This document shows, in pieces, positions 12,559 to 22,345 of a stretch of 23,441 bases of DNA. The translations under genes and the position numbers were made by a program. Numbering within the stretch: position 1 is the stretch's first letter; every line of letters starts with the position of its first letter. Origin of the DNA: a virus; IMG/VR virus record IMGVR_UViG_3300040751_000800, positions 1-23,441 of that record; one strand, 5' to 3'. The notes under the pieces were generated by a model that had not been told where the DNA came from, did no database searches, and saw only the letters and a program-made list of their open reading frames with translations.

Positions 12559-15077
12559 CGGTCTCAGTACTCCGGAATCAAGTCCAGTACACAGGGAACA
12601 ATTCCACAACTCAATTTACTGTTAATTTTCCTTTCACCGAGAAGTCCCAGGTCAAGGTCTATCTAGATGGAACTCTTCAGACGATCACCACGCACTACAC
12701 TCTGACAGATCCGGACAGCACAGGAACCGTTACTTTTGTGACTGCACCAGGGACCGGAGTGGTTGTTTCCTTTATCCGAGAGACCGACTTTCTCCAGACA
12801 GTTGACTACGCAAATAATGACATTCTTGATGCTGAAACTTTAGAAGCGGCCTTCGACAAGTTAACGATGATGTGCCAGCAGGTAAAAAACCTTGCGGACA
12901 AGTCAGTTGGATTCGATGAAACAGTCAATGAGTCAGAAACAACCTCACTGAAATTAGCATCAGGAACCGGAGATCTTGCCGGAAAGCTACTGGCTTTCGA
13001 TGACTCTGGAAATTTTGTCACCACGCAAGAGATCGGAACATTTCGGGGCAATGACACTACGACCACTACAGCAGCCTATGTAGTCCGGGATCTGATCAGG
13101 GATTCATCGAATGACAATGTGTATTTCACGAAAGTAGATGCTCCATCGGGGACTCTCTTAACGAATACTACTTACTTTGAACTTCTTGTTGATGTCGAGA
13201 CTGTCAGAGGTCTGAAAGTCGATGCAGAAACTGCTAGGACGGGAGCAGAAACAGCACTGGCTTCTTTCCAGGGACAATACAAATCTTCGGCTACCGACCC
13301 ATACGGTGGTTCTGCTGATGCTGGAGACCTCTGGTACGATGAGACCAATTCGATATTAAAGTACTACACAGGATCTGCTTTTGAACCTGTCACTACTTCG
13401 TTAGCGACTGTTACCGGAAATTATTTAACGATTTCCAATCAAGTGATCACGGCTGGAGTGGTTCCGGTTTCCCTCGGTGGCACAGGCTCTACGACTGCTT
13501 CGGGAGCAAGGACTGCACTTGGGGTTTCAATTGGGTCTGATGTCCAAGCATATGATGCAGGACTCAACGATATTTCTTCTTTAGCCGTAACAGATGGCAA
13601 CATCATCGTAGGAGACGGAAGTAATTGGGTAGCGGAGTCTGGTTCAACAGCCAGAGCATCACTAGGGGTCACTATCGGATCTCAGGTCCAGGCTTGGGAC
13701 CAACAGTTAGACGATATCAGTGCTCTCGCAGTAACAGACGGAAATATTATTGTTGGTAATGGAACTACCTGGGTAGCGGAATCGGGTGCTACGGCTAGAG
13801 CGTCTCTGGGTTTGACCATCGGTACTGATGTCGAAGCGTACAGTTCCACCAATGCAGATTATTCAGATACCACAGCAAACTTCACGGGGACATTACAAAA
13901 CGGTGGTTCCAACGTAGTTGTAGACAGTGATATTGGTTCCTCGGTTCAAGCCTATGATGCAGACACTGCAAAGTATGACGATACAACAGCCAATTTTACC
14001 GGAACCCTCCAGAACGGAGGGAGTAACGTTGTTGTTGATTCAGACATCGGATCTTCGGTCCAAGGGTATGACGCTGACACGGCTAAGTACGATGACACCA
14101 CAGCAAACTTTACGGGGACTCTCCAGAATGGGGGGTCTAATGTAGTGGTCGATTCAGACATCGGATCTACGGTTCAAGCCTATGATGCGGATTTATCTAC
14201 AATCGCAGGACTGTCGAGTGCGGATGGGAACTTCATTGTTGGGTCTGCAACCGGATGGGTAGTCGAGTCTGGAGCAACCGTAAGAACTTCTCTCGGATTA
14301 GCTATCGGAACGGATGTACAAGCCTATGATGCGGACACCGCAAAGTACGATGACACTACAGCTAATTTCACAGGCACACTCCAAAATGGTGGATCAAACG
14401 TTCTTGTTGACTCAGATATTGGAAGCACAGTTCAAGCGGCAGGTTCGTACCTAACTTCAGTTGATTTAACTTCTAACGTCACAGGGACTCTTCCTGTAGC
14501 TAACGGAGGAACTGGAGTTACTTCTTTAGCATCACTGAATGCTGCTGATCTTGGATCGAATAATGGGGTGTCTAACGCTACAGACGGATATGTTCTGACT
14601 GCCGATGGGACAGGTGGCGTTGCGTGGGAAGCGGCAACAGGTGGATCAGCAATCAGTAATGTGGTTGAAGATTTAAGTCCGCAGCTCGGTGGGAACCTGG
14701 ATGTCAATGGGCAGTCCATCGTTTCGGTTTCAGCAGGGAACATCGCAATTACACCGGACACCACAGGCAAAATAATTCTTGACGGACTTTCGTGGCCCAC
14801 GGCAGACGGGACTGCAGATCAGGTATTAAAGACCGATGGTGCTGGCAATCTCAGCTTTGTGGATCAGTCAGGAGGTGGTGGCTCTGGCAGTTACATCGAA
14901 CACGCAAACAGTATCAGTGACAGCGTCACCGTAGCATCCGGTAATAATCGACTCTATATCGGAGACACCACGTTTAGCGGAACTCTGACGATTGAAGGTA
15001 AATTAGTTTCTATCGATGGTCCGTTTAATTTAACGGGAACGGCAAACATAACAGGAACCCTTTCAGTGAGACACTAA
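12555..15077 (+). CDS. Tail fibre protein with T7 gp17-like N-terminal anchor and repeat shaft
   Basis: An 840-residue fibre. Residues 1-120 match the T7 tail-fibre N-terminal domain pattern (VQYTGNNSTTQFTVNFPF, VKVYLDG, HYTLTD, VVSFIRETDFLQTVDYA, then a helix with DKLTMMCQQVKNLAD), which attaches the fibre to the nozzle. A helix (about 208-232) is followed by DLWYDETNSILKYYTGSAF, common in phage fibres. Residues about 318-630 form the shaft, built from two repeat types of 48 and 38 residues. A Gly-rich linker (GGGGSGSY) precedes a beta C-terminus ending in TLSVRH. No peptidase or depolymerase motif is visible, so receptor binding probably lies here or in the next protein. Confidence 0.85.
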   Translation: MTVSVLRNQVQYTGNNSTTQFTVNFPFTEKSQVKVYLDGTLQTITTHYTLTDPDSTGTVTFVTAPGTGVVVSFIRETDFLQTVDYANNDILDAETLEAAFDKLTMMCQQVKNLADKSVGFDETVNESETTSLKLASGTGDLAGKLLAFDDSGNFVTTQEIGTFRGNDTTTTTAAYVVRDLIRDSSNDNVYFTKVDAPSGTLLTNTTYFELLVDVETVRGLKVDAETARTGAETALASFQGQYKSSATDPYGGSADAGDLWYDETNSILKYYTGSAFEPVTTSLATVTGNYLTISNQVITAGVVPVSLGGTGSTTASGARTALGVSIGSDVQAYDAGLNDISSLAVTDGNIIVGDGSNWVAESGSTARASLGVTIGSQVQAWDQQLDDISALAVTDGNIIVGNGTTWVAESGATARASLGLTIGTDVEAYSSTNADYSDTTANFTGTLQNGGSNVVVDSDIGSSVQAYDADTAKYDDTTANFTGTLQNGGSNVVVDSDIGSSVQGYDADTAKYDDTTANFTGTLQNGGSNVVVDSDIGSTVQAYDADLSTIAGLSSADGNFIVGSATGWVVESGATVRTSLGLAIGTDVQAYDADTAKYDDTTANFTGTLQNGGSNVLVDSDIGSTVQAAGSYLTSVDLTSNVTGTLPVANGGTGVTSLASLNAADLGSNNGVSNATDGYVLTADGTGGVAWEAATGGSAISNVVEDLSPQLGGNLDVNGQSIVSVSAGNIAITPDTTGKIILDGLSWPTADGTADQVLKTDGAGNLSFVDQSGGGGSGSYIEHANSISDSVTVASGNNRLYIGDTTFSGTLTIEGKLVSIDGPFNLTGTANITGTLSVRH
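13506..14440 (+). repeat. Two interleaved coding repeat families in the tail fibre shaft
   Basis: Family A has a 144-base period starting at 13506, 13650 and 13794, and a partial copy just before 14280. It encodes LGV-IGSDVQAYDA, then DIS-LAVTDGNIIVG and WVAESG-TARAS. Family B has a 114-base period starting at 13869, 13983 and 14097, with a separated copy from 14355. It encodes TTANFTGTLQNGGSNVVVDS followed by DIGSSVQAYDADTAKYDD. The copies are nearly identical in protein but heavily different in DNA. Such repeats are expected to form a trimeric beta shaft, and copy number would set fibre length. Confidence 0.9.
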
Positions 15078-16736: not shown

Positions 16737-17116
16737 TCGAAACTCGAAACTTCAAACATAGAGAACTCAGTTGTAATTGCTGTGGTGGCAATCAGATGAA
16801 CGTGGCTTTCTTAGAAAAACTACAGTTGATCCGAGATGAATATCAACAACCGATGGTCATTAGTTCTGCCTACCGATGTCCACGATATAACGATGAGATT
16901 TCATCCACTGGACCCACTGGACCACATACGACAGGAAGAGCCGTAGACATTCTGATCTACGGTCAGGAAGCCTATGATCTTATGAAACTTTGTCTCAAGT
17001 ACGGAATGACTGGACTCGGATTCAAGATGGCTGGACCGAGGAGTACTAGGTTTCTTCACTGTGACGATTTAACCAATACTGCGAAGTCTCCCCGTCCCTG
17101 GATCTGGTCTTACTGA
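16733..17116 (+). CDS. Endolysin, M15-type D-Ala-D-Ala carboxypeptidase/endopeptidase
   Basis: A 127-residue zinc peptidase of the peptidase M15_3 type, which cuts peptide cross-links in peptidoglycan. The substrate-cleft motif SSAYRCPRYND lies at residues 44-53. The zinc ligands are His65 and Asp72 in PHTTGRAVDI and His109 in FLHCDD. A CNCCGG cluster near residue 14-19 resembles the NFK-xEL-CxC start typical of these phage enzymes. There is no signal peptide, so access to the wall requires a holin, candidates for which lie just upstream. The end overlaps the convergent integrase gene by 7 bases. Confidence 0.9.
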   Translation: MIETRNFKHRELSCNCCGGNQMNVAFLEKLQLIRDEYQQPMVISSAYRCPRYNDEISSTGPTGPHTTGRAVDILIYGQEAYDLMKLCLKYGMTGLGFKMAGPRSTRFLHCDDLTNTAKSPRPWIWSY

Positions 17117-18063
17117 TCTTTCTGTACTAGCTGTAACAGTTTATCTAACTTTTCCTCTAACGACTGAAAATCCGTGTGTCGCAGGTTCGATTCCCGCTCT
17201 GGCCACTTCATCGTTTTTGTAACATCCTCTGTATCCTCTCTGTAAATTCCTAACGAATTCACTAATTCTTGTAGCGGCAAATGAGTCGTATTCAGATAGA
17301 GTTCTGTAGTCGATAATCGCTCATGTCGTAGCAGATGTTGCACGTGTACTGGGTTCATGTTTCCGGACAATAGTTCAGTAGCAACAGAAGCTCTATAACC
17401 ATGGAGTGGTTTCGGTCCATCTAAATCGATAGACTTCTGAAACTTTCTCATCGAATACGTGAGATGACTCAGTTCTTTAAAATGGTGATCCAAGTAATTA
17501 GTTTCCCCCTCATGTTTTTCGATCTGTAAAAACTCCAGTAGCTTCGGATGTATCGGGAGAATGGAGTCTTGTTTATTCTTTGTTGTCCAATCGTCTTTTC
17601 CTTCAATACGGATTCCAGATCCGATATCTGTCCAATTTAAATGGAACAGTTCTCCTGCCCTCATTCCGGTATATCTGAGCATGTAATGAGTTCTCCGAAG
17701 AATTTGATATCTCCGTGATCGTTGTGCTCTGTGATTAAGAATGGTTTCGATGATCTCCAGTTGATGAGTTGTCCAGACCTTCGGAATCTTTTTGTTCACT
17801 TTCAGCATCGGCACATAAAATTTCTGATGATTTAAATATTTATGACACCAGTTCAAATAAGCCTTCAGTGATCGTAAATGAGAATTGATTGAACCATCGG
17901 ATAGACCTTCGGACCGGAGATGATCGACAAAGTCCTTAAAAGTTTCGTAAGTAATGGAATCGGATGTCGAGAAGGCTTGCCATCGGGCTAATTGAGGTCG
18001 ATAGGTATCAACAGTCCTCTGAGAACGATATGTCCGTAGATAGTCGATATATTGATCAATCAT
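17110..18063 (-). CDS. int: Tyrosine recombinase, phage integrase
   Basis: A 317-residue integrase. The N-terminal core-binding (SAM-like) part spans residues 1-85 and the catalytic domain about 95-265. Catalytic residues are visible: Arg135 in YTGMRAGEL, a beta-hairpin Lys at 162 or 164 in WTTKNKQD, His221 and Arg224 in LHGYRAS, His247 in LLRHERLS, and nucleophile Tyr256 in TTELYLN. The remaining residues form a tail whose positions 287-301 (WPERESNLRHTDFQS) are the antisense translation of a tRNA-Phe 3' half, meaning attP lies within the gene. The final residues (SLEEKLDKLLQLVQ) form a short Leu-rich helix. The gene overlaps the repressor gene by 4 bases, so both are probably on one message. 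Confidence 0.93.
   Translation of the reverse strand: MIDQYIDYLRTYRSQRTVDTYRPQLARWQAFSTSDSITYETFKDFVDHLRSEGLSDGSINSHLRSLKAYLNWCHKYLNHQKFYVPMLKVNKKIPKVWTTHQLEIIETILNHRAQRSRRYQILRRTHYMLRYTGMRAGELFHLNWTDIGSGIRIEGKDDWTTKNKQDSILPIHPKLLEFLQIEKHEGETNYLDHHFKELSHLTYSMRKFQKSIDLDGPKPLHGYRASVATELLSGNMNPVHVQHLLRHERLSTTELYLNTTHLPLQELVNSLGIYREDTEDVTKTMKWPERESNLRHTDFQSLEEKLDKLLQLVQKDQ
17162..17206 (+). other. attP: attP core: 3' half of tRNA-Phe(GAA)
   Basis: On the + strand the sequence runs from GACTGAAAATCCGT (anticodon loop with GAA anticodon and the 3' anticodon strand) through GTGTC (variable loop), a T arm with TTCGATT loop, TCTGGCC (3' acceptor strand), the discriminator A and a following C. No D arm or 5' half precedes it, so this is a partial tRNA copy, the usual form of a phage attachment core. 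It lies inside the integrase reading frame, about 45 bases before the end of that gene. The direct repeat TGTAACA at 17132-17138 and 17218-17224 flanks it and could be an arm site. Confidence 0.85.
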
Positions 18064-18692
18064 AGTGCCTTTACTAAACGAACAACTCTTCCGACAATAA
18101 TGAACCCGTCACTATCATCAGCCGTAATCGTGAGATCCTTGTAGATCGGATTATCAGAAACAATCCGGTATTCATCTTGAGCTACCCGTTGCACCCGTTT
18201 GACATGAAGAGAATCCCAGAGTCTCAAGACATAGACTCCGTCACCGAGAAAGCCACTGTTCATATGAACGAGAATCGTATCTCCGGAACCCATCAAAGGA
18301 CTCATGCTGTCACCGACTACGGTAATGAAGGCTAAATTGCTATCCGGCAACTTTGGTAGCCACTCGGTAATCACAGAGATTGTTTCTCCGTTTTCATCGG
18401 CAGTCAGCGTCCCTGCTCCTCCACTAGCTTCGGTATCGAACTTTCGGATCAGCCGATAGTTATCATCTCTGATCACTTCTTCCGTTTTGACCTCATCTAT
18501 ATTTCCAAAGGCCTTTTCTATCTTGCTCAGAAAGTAGGATGAATCCTGTTTTCCTTGAAGAACTCGGTTCACTTTAGATCGATCCCATCCAATGGCATCT
18601 GCTATCTCCTGCTGAGAAAATCCCTGGGACTTCCGCCACAGATCAAAATTTTCTGATATTTTTTGCACTTTATTGTTGACTCGTTTAATCAT
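18060..18692 (-). CDS. LexA/CI-type autocleaving lysogeny repressor
   Basis: A 210-residue repressor. Residues 15-65 form an HTH (LWRKSQGFSQQEIADAIGWD and the recognition part RSKVNRVLQG). Residues about 86-208 form a peptidase S24 domain. Ser129 in VVGDSMSPL and Lys165 in LHVKRVQRV are the likely catalytic pair. An Ala93-Gly94 bond (GGAGTL) lies 36 residues before the Ser, matching the LexA/CI cleavage spacing. By family knowledge it should self-cleave with RecA after DNA damage. No Shine-Dalgarno is apparent before the start, so the mRNA may be near-leaderless. The divergent early operon starts 65 bases upstream, and the integrase gene follows. Confidence 0.9.
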   Translation of the reverse strand: MIKRVNNKVQKISENFDLWRKSQGFSQQEIADAIGWDRSKVNRVLQGKQDSSYFLSKIEKAFGNIDEVKTEEVIRDDNYRLIRKFDTEASGGAGTLTADENGETISVITEWLPKLPDSNLAFITVVGDSMSPLMGSGDTILVHMNSGFLGDGVYVLRLWDSLHVKRVQRVAQDEYRIVSDNPIYKDLTITADDSDGFIIVGRVVRLVKAL

Positions 18693-18706: not shown

Positions 18707-18741
18707 GCACTCTGCTGCATCAGAGTGAACGGTTAACGGTT
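18694..18741. promoter_or_regulatory. Operator region between repressor and early operon
   Basis: Three elements lie in 48 bases. TCTGATCAGA (18694-18703) is a perfect 10-bp palindrome. CACTCTG and CAGAGTG (18708-18714 and 18721-18727) form a perfect 7-bp inverted repeat with a 6-base spacer. AACGGTT is repeated in tandem (18728-18741). The first two are plausible dimer sites for the S24 repressor; the tandem heptamer could bind another regulator, such as the HTH of the first early gene. Confidence 0.55.
18702..18729 (-). promoter_or_regulatory. Candidate repressor promoter (leftward)
   Basis: On the - strand a TTCACT -35-like hexamer (18724-18729) precedes a CATATC -10-like stretch (18702-18707) with 16 bases between. 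A transcript would begin only a few bases before the repressor ATG at 18692, which fits the missing ribosome site. The elements overlap the 7-bp inverted repeat, allowing autoregulation. Weak consensus match. Confidence 0.3.
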
Positions 18742-18756
18742 AGAACATGGAGTGAA

Positions 18757-19692
18757 ATGCAAGATACCAACCTTCTCAATACCACTCAGGCCGCCAAGGC
18801 TCTTGGAGTCAGTGTCGATCAGATACGAAGAATGATCAGTAATGGTCAGATCAAAAGTATCCAGACCCACGATAGATCCCCTCATTTAATCCCCACTGCA
18901 GAAATCCTCCGGAACACTGAGATAAAACCGAGATCCTCTCGGATGTCCTTTGAAGAATACTGTGAACTGGATGGACTGAATGCGTCTTTGATCAAGAGAC
19001 TGAACAAGTCTTTAAACCATTACCTCTCTACTCCGTCAGATCCGTCTTCAGCGATGGCAAAGGGAACCGCCATTCATGACAGCATTGAACTGCGACTAGC
19101 CGGAAAATCTTTCGGGGAAAAGTATGTGGTTGCGCCCAATGTGGACAGAAGGACGAAAGCAGGACGAGAGGAATACGATCAGTTTGTAGCAGAAGAAAAA
19201 AGAACGGTACTGAAGAAGGAAGACTACGAAGACGTAGTGCTGATGACCGAGTCAGTTTTCAGACATCCTGAGTTCTGGAGAATTATTCCTAATGCGGAAG
19301 TAGAACAGGTGATCACCTGGGAAGAAAACGGTATCCGAGCAAAAGCGAGACTTGATTACAGTGACGAGGGACAGCACCTCGTAGTGGATCTGAAGAGTGC
19401 TCAGGATGCTTCACCATACGGATTCAAGAAAGCAGTCACACGGTATCAGTACGACATTCAAGCCAACTGGTATCGAAGAGCTTATCAATCTGTTTCCGGT
19501 CACTACCCAGAGTTTTTATTTTTAGTTGTCGAAAACACAGCACCCTACAACGTAGCTCTTTACAAATTGTCCGATGAATTGATGCACAACGCAGAGTTCA
19601 AGATCAATCAGGCAGTCGAATTATACAAACAGTATCTCTCTGGAGAGATCTATAGCCAGGGATACCATGAGGACGTAATGGAGTTGTCATGA
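18757..19692 (+). CDS. HTH DNA-binding domain fused to RecE-like PD-(D/E)XK exonuclease
   Basis: With the ATG at 18757 (GGAG 4 bases before it) the protein has 311 residues. An upstream in-frame ATG at 18673 would overlap the repressor gene and the operators, and is unlikely. Residues 6-54 are an excisionase/MerR-like HTH (LLNTTQAAKALGVSVDQIRR, then a wing with SPHLIP). Residues 64-300 resemble the DUF3799/RecE exonuclease family: the GTAIHDSIE motif with His107, acidic residues near 181-183, Asp200 in KARLDY, Asp211-Leu-Lys213 in VVDLKSA, and a YQYDIQANWY helix (230-239). This should be the 5'-3' exonuclease partner of ERF. As first gene of the early operon it sits where Cro or Xis is usually found. 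Confidence 0.82.
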   Translation: MQDTNLLNTTQAAKALGVSVDQIRRMISNGQIKSIQTHDRSPHLIPTAEILRNTEIKPRSSRMSFEEYCELDGLNASLIKRLNKSLNHYLSTPSDPSSAMAKGTAIHDSIELRLAGKSFGEKYVVAPNVDRRTKAGREEYDQFVAEEKRTVLKKEDYEDVVLMTESVFRHPEFWRIIPNAEVEQVITWEENGIRAKARLDYSDEGQHLVVDLKSAQDASPYGFKKAVTRYQYDIQANWYRRAYQSVSGHYPEFLFLVVENTAPYNVALYKLSDELMHNAEFKINQAVELYKQYLSGEIYSQGYHEDVMELS

Positions 19693-20564
19693 AGCAGTGC
19701 AAACTATGCCGGAAGGAGATGTCGGTAACAGCCAATAACCAGAGGTACTGTGGAGATCCTTGTACCTATAAAATGTATGAACGAAGACATACAAGGCTAA
19801 AACCTAGTAACTGTGCAACCTGCAATAGCACCTTCCAACCAAAAACGAATATCAATGTCTACTGTTCCAAAGAATGTCAGAAAGTCGGAAGCAAGAAGTT
19901 CTATCAAGAGTATTTAAAGAAGAGACGAGAAGAACGTTCAATCAGATTAAAGGACAAACCAGAGAAGGTTTGTGCTTATCGGCACTGTAACCGGAAATTC
20001 AAAGATGTTCATCCAAACAAACGCTTCTGTAGCACGATCTGTCAGAGAGGGAACGAAAGAGTAGTTGAAAACGAAAAGTGGTTGAACAGAAAAAAGGTCC
20101 ATTGTGCAGCATCTACTTGTTCCAAGCTATTCATTCAGAAGAACTCCAACCAGATCTACTGTAGCCATGTGTGCAAGCGATTAGTCAGAAACCTTCGGGA
20201 CCGAGAACGATACAAACAGAATCCGAATAGGCCATGTAGCCGATGTAAACAACGGGTTCTATCAAAGAATTCCAAGGCAAAGATTTGTGATCGATGTTCC
20301 AAGGATCTTCAGCAGATCAAGATGAATAAACAGATGTTTAATGCTCCGGAATCCGACATTGTCTTTGAGCCGGAGAGCAATGACTTCTTCAGTAGTCCTT
20401 GGACCCGTTTACAGAAAAGACATTTCATCGATCTGGAACCGACCGACTCTTCCGTAGAGTCTTCGGATTTTAAGGATCAAATTCAAAACTATTTAAAGAA
20501 AGGAGGAAAGATTACGAAGCTATCAGTCGGTTTCTGTCACTCACCCATTACGATGGAGCAGTAA
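19689..20564 (+). CDS. Protein with five tandem zinc-finger (treble-clef-like) modules
   Basis: A 291-residue basic protein that begins in the ATGA overlap of the exonuclease gene. Five four-Cys modules are visible: C4-C7/C21-C25, C42-C45/C59-C63, C95-C100/C114-C118, C139-C144/C158-C162 and C183-C186/C200-C203. Every module has exactly 13 residues between its Cys pairs, and most have Tyr or Phe before the third Cys (YCGDPC, YCSKEC, FCSTIC, YCSHVC). Lys/Arg-rich helices separate them. The tail (about 220-291) is acidic, then has FKDQIQNYLKKGGKITKL, a short motif seen at the ends of other small phage regulators. DNA or RNA binding is likely; the precise role is unknown. Its place between exonuclease and ERF suggests a recombination or replication accessory. 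Confidence 0.7.
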   Translation: MKQCKLCRKEMSVTANNQRYCGDPCTYKMYERRHTRLKPSNCATCNSTFQPKTNINVYCSKECQKVGSKKFYQEYLKKRREERSIRLKDKPEKVCAYRHCNRKFKDVHPNKRFCSTICQRGNERVVENEKWLNRKKVHCAASTCSKLFIQKNSNQIYCSHVCKRLVRNLRDRERYKQNPNRPCSRCKQRVLSKNSKAKICDRCSKDLQQIKMNKQMFNAPESDIVFEPESNDFFSSPWTRLQKRHFIDLEPTDSSVESSDFKDQIQNYLKKGGKITKLSVGFCHSPITMEQ

Positions 20565-20809
20565 TGATCAGTTTAGACAAAGCAAAATCACTGATGAAAG
20601 GACCGAACTATATGGAGGAAATGGTCATGGAGACACTCAAAGCCTCTGATCTCTCGTTAATACCGGAGGATACGGAAGTAGATTTCGATGATGAAGAACT
20701 ACTGGAAGCCTTCCAGATTGCTCAGTCACAGATTCATTTGAAAAACTATCGTCTAGCGAATTCCGTTCTCCTTTTCTGTCACCGACTTCTCAAGGAAAGA
20801 TATGAGTGA
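20564..20809 (+). CDS. Small acidic protein of unknown function
   Basis: An 81-residue protein coupled to the zinc-finger gene (TAATG) and overlapping the ERF gene by 8 bases. The middle is strongly acidic (PEDTEVDFDDEELLEAF) and the C-terminal half looks helical (QIAQSQIHLKNYRLANSVLL). No membrane segment, no known motif. The tight overlaps support it as a real gene of the recombination operon, perhaps an accessory to ERF or the nuclease. Not recognised. Confidence 0.6.
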   Translation: MISLDKAKSLMKGPNYMEEMVMETLKASDLSLIPEDTEVDFDDEELLEAFQIAQSQIHLKNYRLANSVLLFCHRLLKERYE

Positions 20810-21260
20810 ACTATTTTTACAATTGACATCAGAACTATCGTCATCACTGGATACCCAGGAACTCGACAAGGCACTCGCCAAGGTCAAAGAGGAGATGAGT
20901 GCTCTCGTAGAAAAGGACGGAACCAATCCCCATTTCAGAAACAGTTTTACTTCTCTGTCCGCACTACTGAAAGCAGCAACTCCGGTACTCGCTAAACATG
21001 GACTCTCTCTTCAGCAGCATCCAACGAGTTCTAAGTTAGTATCCAGACTGTCTCATTCATCAGGTCAATGGATCGTATCAGAATATTCGTTACCGACACA
21101 CAAGGATGATCCCCAGGGAGACGGTTCAGCAATCACATATGCACGGAGGTACTGCTACCAGAGCATTCTGGGTCTAGCTGGAGACATGGATGACGATGGA
21201 AATGCCAGTATGCCAATTAGTGCTGGCCCTCCGATGCCGAGAACCGGAGTGAAACGATGA
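20802..21260 (+). CDS. erf: ERF-family single-strand annealing recombinase
   Basis: A 152-residue ERF protein, shorter than P22 Erf (204), mainly in the C-terminal part. The family signature is clear: helix EMSALVEKDGTNPHFRNSFT, then LLKAATPVLAKHGLSLQQ, and the conserved block GDGSAITYARRYCYQSILGL with AGDMDDDGN (residues 107-134). By family knowledge, such proteins form rings on ssDNA and anneal complementary strands, working with a 5'-3' exonuclease such as the RecE-like enzyme encoded three genes upstream. It overlaps the next gene by 4 bases. Confidence 0.92.
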   Translation: MSELFLQLTSELSSSLDTQELDKALAKVKEEMSALVEKDGTNPHFRNSFTSLSALLKAATPVLAKHGLSLQQHPTSSKLVSRLSHSSGQWIVSEYSLPTHKDDPQGDGSAITYARRYCYQSILGLAGDMDDDGNASMPISAGPPMPRTGVKR

Positions 21261-21475: not shown

Positions 21476-22345
21476 ATGTTACCACAACTATCACTCGTGG
21501 AAGATGATTTTCTATCAACAATTCGTAAGGTTTCCAGAGATGGATACTGTCGATTACACATTGATCCAAGTGACGCAAAGTCTTTACTGGTAAAAAACAC
21601 GAACAACCGGAAACTCCGACAAACCGTAGTCGATTACTATGCGAATGAAATGATCAATGGGAATTGGATAGACAACGGAGATCCGATCCGGATTGCACGG
21701 TCAGGGCGGTTACTGAATGGACAGCATCGGTTATCTGCACTGGTCAAGGCAGGAGTAACGCTACCGTTTCATTTTCTATCGAATCTATCAGAAGAATCTT
21801 TTGAGCAGATGGACAATGGAGCAAAGCGAACACTGAATGACAACCTTGATATCGTCTCGGATCATGTATCGATTCTCAATGGGATTTATCAGTTAAAAGA
21901 AGGAGTGATGCAACGGAAGAGAACCGGACCATCTCAGATCAAATCGGTAGTGACAGATGAGATCATCGAATTGATGGAAGAGATGCCGAGGACAAAGAGA
22001 CGGTTTATTCGTAGTCAGTACGTCAAAGCAGTGACAGTGACTTGTGTTCTCATTGGGGAACCAAAGGAAAGAGTTTTTAGTCGATACGAGAACATCATCA
22101 CGTTGACTCCAACAAATTCACTGGAACTGAACTTCAATCGGTGGCTTACCAACAATCTTACTTATAAAGGAGCACGGGTCAGTCATTACTTCTCAATTTC
22201 TCGGTTGGTTCCAGCATTCTATAAGTTTTATACGAGCATGGAATCCGATAAGCAATTTCGATTGGGAGAGGATGAATCCAAGGAGATTCTGAAATCTCTC
22301 TCTGTGTATCTGAAAGACTATTACAGATCACTGAATCACCCGTAA
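21476..22345 (+). CDS. ParB-like nuclease-domain protein
   Basis: A 289-residue soluble protein. Residues about 28-125 contain a ParB/Srx-like block: an N-terminal helix with YYANEMINGNWIDNGDPIRI, then the signature GRLLNGQHRLSALVKAGVTL (GxxxxxGxHRxxA, residues 77-96), and a following FEQMDNGAKRTLNDNLDI segment, all shared by phage proteins usually labelled ParB-like or hypothetical. The C-terminal 160 residues are helical and basic. Such proteins bind or cut DNA or bind CTP; here the activity cannot be set. It closes the tightly packed part of the recombination operon. Confidence 0.7.
   Translation: MLPQLSLVEDDFLSTIRKVSRDGYCRLHIDPSDAKSLLVKNTNNRKLRQTVVDYYANEMINGNWIDNGDPIRIARSGRLLNGQHRLSALVKAGVTLPFHFLSNLSEESFEQMDNGAKRTLNDNLDIVSDHVSILNGIYQLKEGVMQRKRTGPSQIKSVVTDEIIELMEEMPRTKRRFIRSQYVKAVTVTCVLIGEPKERVFSRYENIITLTPTNSLELNFNRWLTNNLTYKGARVSHYFSISRLVPAFYKFYTSMESDKQFRLGEDESKEILKSLSVYLKDYYRSLNHP

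Follow-up and report, generated by a model that had tools for sequence, protein, structure and literature searches.

The DNA analyzed here (the window) is an IMG/VR virus record of 23.4 kb and contains capsid and tail genes as well as a peptidase/endolysin-like gene. The window phage is temperate, and the gene studied here, named the array gene after its row of zinc modules (Table 1), is located in its early operon. The genes of this operon follow in the order RecE-like exonuclease, array protein, 81-aa ORF, ERF, 72-aa ORF, phrog_5931 protein, and SSB-like protein. In a preliminary description, made from the sequence alone, the array gene was placed between the RecE-like nuclease and ERF. It indeed touches the exonuclease gene, whose stop overlaps the array start by 4 nt, but the 81-aa ORF separates it from ERF.

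Table 1. Positions in the window of the array gene, its parts, and the neighboring genes
Feature	Position	Strand	Residues	Description
Tyrosine integrase	17110..18063	-		Family matches
LexA/CI-type repressor, divergent	18060..18692	-		HTH and peptidase S24; family matches
RecE-like PDDEXK exonuclease, upstream neighbor	18757..19692	+		PF12684, 1e-25; phrog_412 exonuclease VIII, 4e-52
Array gene: five-module zinc array and SutA-RBD-like tail	19689..20564	+	291 aa	ATG start
Segment replaced as a unit in L014 and L016	19692..20337	+		blastn blocks stop at 19692 and resume at 20337
Module 1, CX2C-X13-CX3C	19698..19763	+	4–25	Cys 4, 7, 21, 25; Cys invariant in relatives
Module 2, CX2C-X13-CX3C	19812..19877	+	42–63	Cys 42, 45, 59, 63
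Module 3, CX4C-X13-CX3C	19971..20042	+	95–118	Cys 95, 100, 114, 118
Module 4, CX4C-X13-CX3C	20103..20174	+	139–162	Cys 139, 144, 158, 162
Module 5, CX2C-X13-CX2C	20235..20297	+	183–203	Cys 183, 186, 200, 203
Linker, disordered and mildly acidic	20337..20465	+	217–259	AlphaFold pLDDT <50
SutA-RBD-like module around FKDQIQNYLKKGGKITKL	20460..20528	+	about 258–280	
81-aa ORF, downstream	20564..20809	+	81 aa	Without family match (Pfam, PHROG); conserved in relatives
ERF single-strand annealing protein	20802..21260	+		PF04404, 1e-19; phrog_2324, 6e-38

Several other features of the window were observed. The exonuclease carries at its N terminus an excisionase/MerR-type HTH (HTH_17, 2.5e-6), which is an unusual fusion that is retained in relatives. 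The phrog_5931 protein (21476–22345) appeared ParB-like by eye; it is retained in some relatives, and in the contigs L004, L006, L014, and L016 its place is taken by short unrelated ORFs. The tail-fibre gene (840 aa) contains repeated blocks (TLQNGGSNVVVDSDIGSSVQAYDADTAKYDDTTANFTG) at 13640–14430.

Zinc modules and predicted fold of the array

The five modules of the preliminary description, with their X13 spacings and coordinates, were all found to be exact in 19689–20564. More than two four-cysteine modules were obtained in none of 20,000 composition-preserving shuffles of the window protein. The array is strongly basic, with 56 K/R versus 17 D/E in residues 1–215, and the tail (residues 216–291) is only mildly acidic, with 12 D/E versus 8 K/R. 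The motif YLKKGGKITKL, previously singled out in this tail, proved to be a distinct element. On the other hand, the constant X13 spacing applies to the window protein but not to its family, in which the module spacings vary: module 1 is X14 and module 3 is CX2C in L014 and L016, module 4 is CX2C in L011 and L012, and X11 modules are present in other lineages. The Cys spacings had also been read as a sign of duplication followed by specialisation. This reading did not hold, because CX2C and CX4C interchange at one module position between relatives; as the gaps at the same module differ by 1–2 residues, the spacing is no record of duplication history.

An AlphaFold model of the window protein was built from 13 sequences. 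In this model, modules 2–4 consist of a beta hairpin and a helix (pLDDT 80–89; 82–89 for module 2), with the knuckle in the hairpin and the second Cys pair at the helix start, as in treble clefs. Module 1 was predicted with low confidence, and the treble-clef features are less clear in modules 1 and 5. Long helices join the modules, the linker is disordered, and a further helix (residues 261–270) is located just before the glycines of the tail. The nearest folds of the array modules are YacG and CGNR, and YacG was the best single-module match for both the window model and the L104 protein (TM 0.6–0.68 by target length). When the whole model was searched using Foldseek, only matches with E >0.001 were obtained. 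The whole window protein has no Pfam match to DUF2116, zf-FCS, or YacG, the sequence matches being below the cut-offs. The searches with single-module profiles were also weak, with DUF2116 found in seven of 22 modules (best 2e-4) and weak similarity to NinG. The PDB sequence matches of the array to eukaryotic C2H2 fingers were not considered meaningful, as they reflect shared CxxC stretches. The predicted treble clefs agree with the zinc-binding array proposed in the preliminary description, and from the modules, their predicted fold, and the basic charge we infer that the array binds zinc and nucleic acid.

Relatives of the array protein and exchange of the array

Relatives of the array protein were found in 15 viral contigs. 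The order exonuclease, array, 81-aa ORF, ERF is the same in every relative whose flank is present, and all 20 module cysteines are retained in the full-length relatives. The dN/dS values, which are about 0.1–0.25 for the array and about 0.02–0.14 for the tail, indicate purifying selection, which implies that the protein is expressed and has a function. Hence, the relatives, the retained cysteines, and the purifying selection together establish that the array gene is real.

The comparison with L014 and L016 revealed an exchange of the array. The DNA of these two contigs is 92%–97% identical to the window up to 19692, which is the array start codon, and 91%–92% identical again from 20337, which is the array/tail border. 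Between these positions the DNA similarity is lost, and the replacement is a diverged five-module array. The overall protein identity of 49% is explained by a nearly identical tail together with an array in which only about a third of the residues are identical. In L010, dS is about 1.2 for modules 1–2 versus 0.14 for modules 3–5, hinting at a possible exchange inside the array.

The repressor region also varies between relatives. At least two immunity types were observed (18060–18692; L010, L011, and L014), which differ by replacement of the repressor N terminus and the intergenic operator region. L010 and L014 have a common repressor type and different arrays, while L016 has the other repressor type and the array of L014; among the relatives compared, the array type is independent of the repressor/operator type. 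In L015 and L012, the integrase is lost and the repressor gene is reduced to its start, and the array is kept. The junctions of the two deletions differ (L015:4540–5060 and L012:4760–5040), and these contigs apparently derive from the same phage as lytic variants. Just 5′ of the exonuclease start lies the sequence AACGGTTAACGGTTA (18728–18742), whose core AACGGTTA is shared by every relative, including those with a replaced repressor and operator region. As a candidate target site of the array, this box was ruled out because it is unchanged in the relatives with the swapped array; no target site was found.

Similarity of the tail to SutA and its distribution in phages

The best Pfam match of the whole window protein, obtained before any motif search, was SutA-RBD (PF20661, E=0.0098), with a score of 15.7 bits, which is under the curated threshold of 29.3 bits. 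SutA of P. aeruginosa grips the beta protrusion of RNAP via a helix, a pair of glycines, and a short strand; its binding to RNAP beta is impaired by substitutions at L67, M71, F74, L75, G78, G79, V81, and I84, and likewise by substitutions of K60 and R64 (PMC9300723). In a gapless match, L67, M71, F74, and L75 correspond to F261, I265, Y268, and L269 of the window protein, and G78, G79, V81, and I84 correspond to G272, G273, I275, and L278. These residues fall in the helix (261–270), the GG (272–273), and the hydrophobic positions 275 and 278 of the tail module, and all eight beta-protrusion contact positions are hydrophobic/aromatic or Gly in register. The polar contacts K60 and R64 are not kept, as the window tail has S254 and S258 there. 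Since the curated cut-off is failed and two of the ten contacts are missing, our claim is limited to the tail probably working like a SutA-type RNAP dock, and not to its being SutA.

Further phage modules were gathered with a degenerate DNA pattern, which was built on the window motif in view of the SutA interface. For this reason, the positions set by the pattern do not count as independent evidence, and the similarity to SutA of the phage modules, which are short (about 18–25 residues), is partly by construction. A profile of 30 phage modules from outside the window family ranked SutA (7f0r) at the top among 177,635 PDB sequences (E=1e-4; runner-up 0.025), and all 30 of these modules matched PF20661 (best 5.8e-13). 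The window tail scored 30.9 bits with this profile, a value reached by one of 5,000 shuffles of the tail in which every pattern position was fixed. The positions of K60 and R64 were left free in the search pattern, and the commonest residues there, among up to 68 phage modules, were K (25) and R (37), respectively.

The scan of viral contigs with the KIT form of the pattern, for which the matches listed were used, and with the KVT form, which gave 78 stretches, showed that the module is present in at least 133 ORFs, mostly of 50–100 aa. The pattern-matching ORFs of L037, L046, L076, and L096 were dropped, as they scored <10 bits with the module profile. Most of the matches listed are free SutA-RBD-like proteins that lack a DNA-binding domain, and these occur in many settings. 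Several stand-alone phage relatives, as well as JBD44 gp62, YA3 ORF34, and Ab31 ORF35, pass the PF20661 curated cut-off. The matches listed include 26 ORFs of at least 125 aa that carry the module, and 19 of these have recognizable zinc or HTH segments. The arrangements comprise two zinc modules with the tail module (L042, L063, L090, L104, L105, L119, L124, L144, and L148), the five zinc modules of the window family, an HTH-like segment with one zinc module (L055, L110, L133, and L140; HTH partly by eye), an HTH with the tail module (L077 and L218), and one zinc module (L089). The remaining seven ORFs fall into two lineages, one of a cyanophage-type structural protein and one of a cell-wall hydrolase ORF (L043). 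The cyanophage-like structural protein (MADVKVPALLHKMSKAAQKAW...), seen in L146, L147, L159, L168, L173, and L206 with the SutA-RBD-like stretch DIASDVAKFLERGGKVTVY, is the main fusion of the module to a partner outside the DNA-binding domains.

The neighbors of module-bearing genes are mostly DNA-metabolism genes and point to no single common pathway. A profile of the two-module proteins recovered the window family and also a second protein with five zinc modules and the tail module, which is unrelated and occurs in L276/L277 (318 aa, 22% identity); its gene belongs to an early operon that follows the integrase and repressor genes, with exonuclease and ERF not adjacent. In about 20 contigs, the gene of the L104 two-module group is located between TerS-like, RuvC, and TerL genes. 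On the other hand, JBD44 gp62 and YA3 ORF34 (phrog_22237), in which SutA-RBD is joined to an HTH, adjoin exonuclease and Erf, and Ab31 ORF35 (phrog_12813), in which the module is combined with a zinc module and an HTH-like segment, adjoins Bet, exonuclease, and SSB. These proteins are annotated only as hypothetical or putative transcriptional regulators, and SutA is absent from the papers on the three phages. In L278, a module-bearing regulator is located upstream of a YqaJ-type exonuclease (by eye). The expectation that homologues are always found beside exonuclease and ERF is thus correct for the window's own lineage, and such neighbors recur in JBD44, YA3, and Ab31, but it fails for L276/L277 and the L104 group. 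These two contexts show that the architecture can occur away from recombination genes, though it is often near them.

In tblastn searches of named phages, the array gave weak partial matches only (E 0.1–1) and the tail gave nothing usable, and the array profile had no match in genome contigs. The capsid protein scan of genome contigs found mostly alphaproteobacterial relatives (43%–58% identity). None of the capsid-relative loci contained the tail module or the early genes of the window, and the search for SutA-RBD in five capsid-relative genomes gave noise only. The capsid relatives point to Alphaproteobacteria, whereas SutA was described in Pseudomonas. The homologues are not a well-described family with another function, as no curated family covers the protein. 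No description of SutA-RBD in phages, of its zinc-array or HTH fusions, or of the array cassette swap was found in open-access full text. Hence, while treble-clef zinc modules and SutA-RBD are already known, their combination in phages seems to be undescribed.

Possible role in phage transcription

These data suggest, with a probability of roughly 0.6, that the window protein acts as a phage transcription factor of modular build, which binds nucleic acid and docks on RNAP. This interpretation builds on the module architecture, the match of the tail to SutA, the recurrent linkage of the tail to DNA-binding domains, and the array exchange that left the tail in place. A transcription factor was among the roles proposed in the preliminary description, and both the SutA-RBD-like tail and its recurrent fusion to DNA-binding domains argue for it. 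The five basic treble-clef modules would bind nucleic acid, with DNA of the phage or the host as the most likely target, and the flexible, mildly acidic linker would connect them to the C-terminal module, whose helix, Gly-Gly, and short strand would dock on the beta protrusion of host RNAP. As the tail matches the part of SutA that grips RNAP, the protein probably recruits or steers the host enzyme, and we infer that it binds RNAP in the host of this phage. The polymerase tethered at sites chosen by the array could then activate, read through, or redirect early transcription. On the sequence alone, the effect could be activation, antitermination, or host shut-off.

The same anatomy would also fit a protein that takes over the host, in which binding of RNAP by the tail and of nucleic acid by the array would inhibit host transcription or defence rather than steer phage genes. 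The fast change of the array and the many free SutA-RBD-like proteins, the majority among the matches listed, are consistent with this, but the repeated fusion of the module to DNA-binding domains suggests a choice of sites, and we consider such a role decidedly unlikely. A different possibility, which is unlikely but stays a live rival because exonuclease and Erf neighbors recur in other lineages, is that the array, bound to branched or single-stranded DNA, would load exonuclease and ERF or bridge them, with the tail serving as an interaction peptide for either of them. In its own lineage the gene always lies between these two genes, module-bearing regulators adjoin exonuclease and Erf or Bet genes elsewhere, as described above, and the zinc modules resemble those of NinG and of HNH/EndoVII nucleases. 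However, the positioning of exonuclease and ERF on DNA, as previously proposed, is at odds with the same architecture occurring without either of them adjacent, both in L276/L277 and among the terminase and RuvC genes of the L104 group. The tail is also found as free 50–100-aa proteins in many settings, and its match is to an RNAP-binding domain and not to any known nuclease or annealase partner.

The anti-repressor function also suggested earlier, in which the protein would act on immunity through the divergent CI/LexA-type repressor, would fit the location of the early operon directly opposite the repressor, and the swapping of the array between close relatives, as often happens to immunity genes. 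This function became improbable, since L015 and L012 keep the array despite the loss of integrase and most of the repressor, and since the array type does not follow the repressor/operator type in L010, L014, and L016. Finally, the weak PHROG matches of the zinc modules to HNH endonuclease families and the weak NinG likeness of single modules could suggest a nuclease or structure-specific endonuclease in which a NinG/HNH zinc part was multiplied. These matches are confined to the zinc modules, the whole protein has no NinG or HNH family match, and neither the stretches between the modules nor the disordered tail that makes up the remainder contain a catalytic domain, which makes this origin of the protein very improbable.

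Beyond the window protein, we give about even odds to the proposal that phages carry a widespread, undescribed, mobile RNAP docking module related to SutA, which is either free or joined to interchangeable DNA-binding domains, and that the window array is exchanged as a unit. Such an exchange would mean that phages re-target the polymerase by swapping the DNA-reading half of the protein and keeping the half that grips the polymerase. This would provide a testable function for a large group of phage proteins now called hypothetical, and would suggest that phages commonly target the beta protrusion of RNAP. Long arrays of zinc modules are better known in eukaryotes, and if the transcription-factor interpretation is true, the cassette-swapped phage array with its fixed effector tail would be an example, found in nature, of a transcription factor built from modules.

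The proposed factor can be compared with several known systems. The modules of YacG, CGNR, DUF2116, and zf-FCS share with the window modules the pattern CXXC...(Y/F)C(S)XXC and the hairpin and helix, but they are single, while the window protein has five in a row joined by helices. The phage factors lambda Q and N are loaded onto RNAP at selected nucleic-acid sites; the window protein has no visible sequence similarity to these antiterminators, and a different RNAP contact is proposed for it. SutA (PDB 7f0r, 7xl3, 7xl4; PF20661) has, like the window protein, an acidic disordered stretch followed by a helix, GG, and a short strand, but it is a small cellular protein without a zinc array or other DNA-binding domain, whereas in the window protein a zinc array precedes the acidic linker. 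JBD44 gp62, YA3 ORF34, and Ab31 ORF35, from P. aeruginosa phages, share with the window protein the combination of a SutA-RBD-like module and a DNA-binding domain, but differ in that the module is N-terminal and is joined to one HTH instead of a zinc array. The occurrence of such relatives in the laboratory P. aeruginosa PA14 phages JBD44, in which genes can be deleted using CRISPR editing (PMC11898732), and YA3 makes the proposed docking on RNAP testable.
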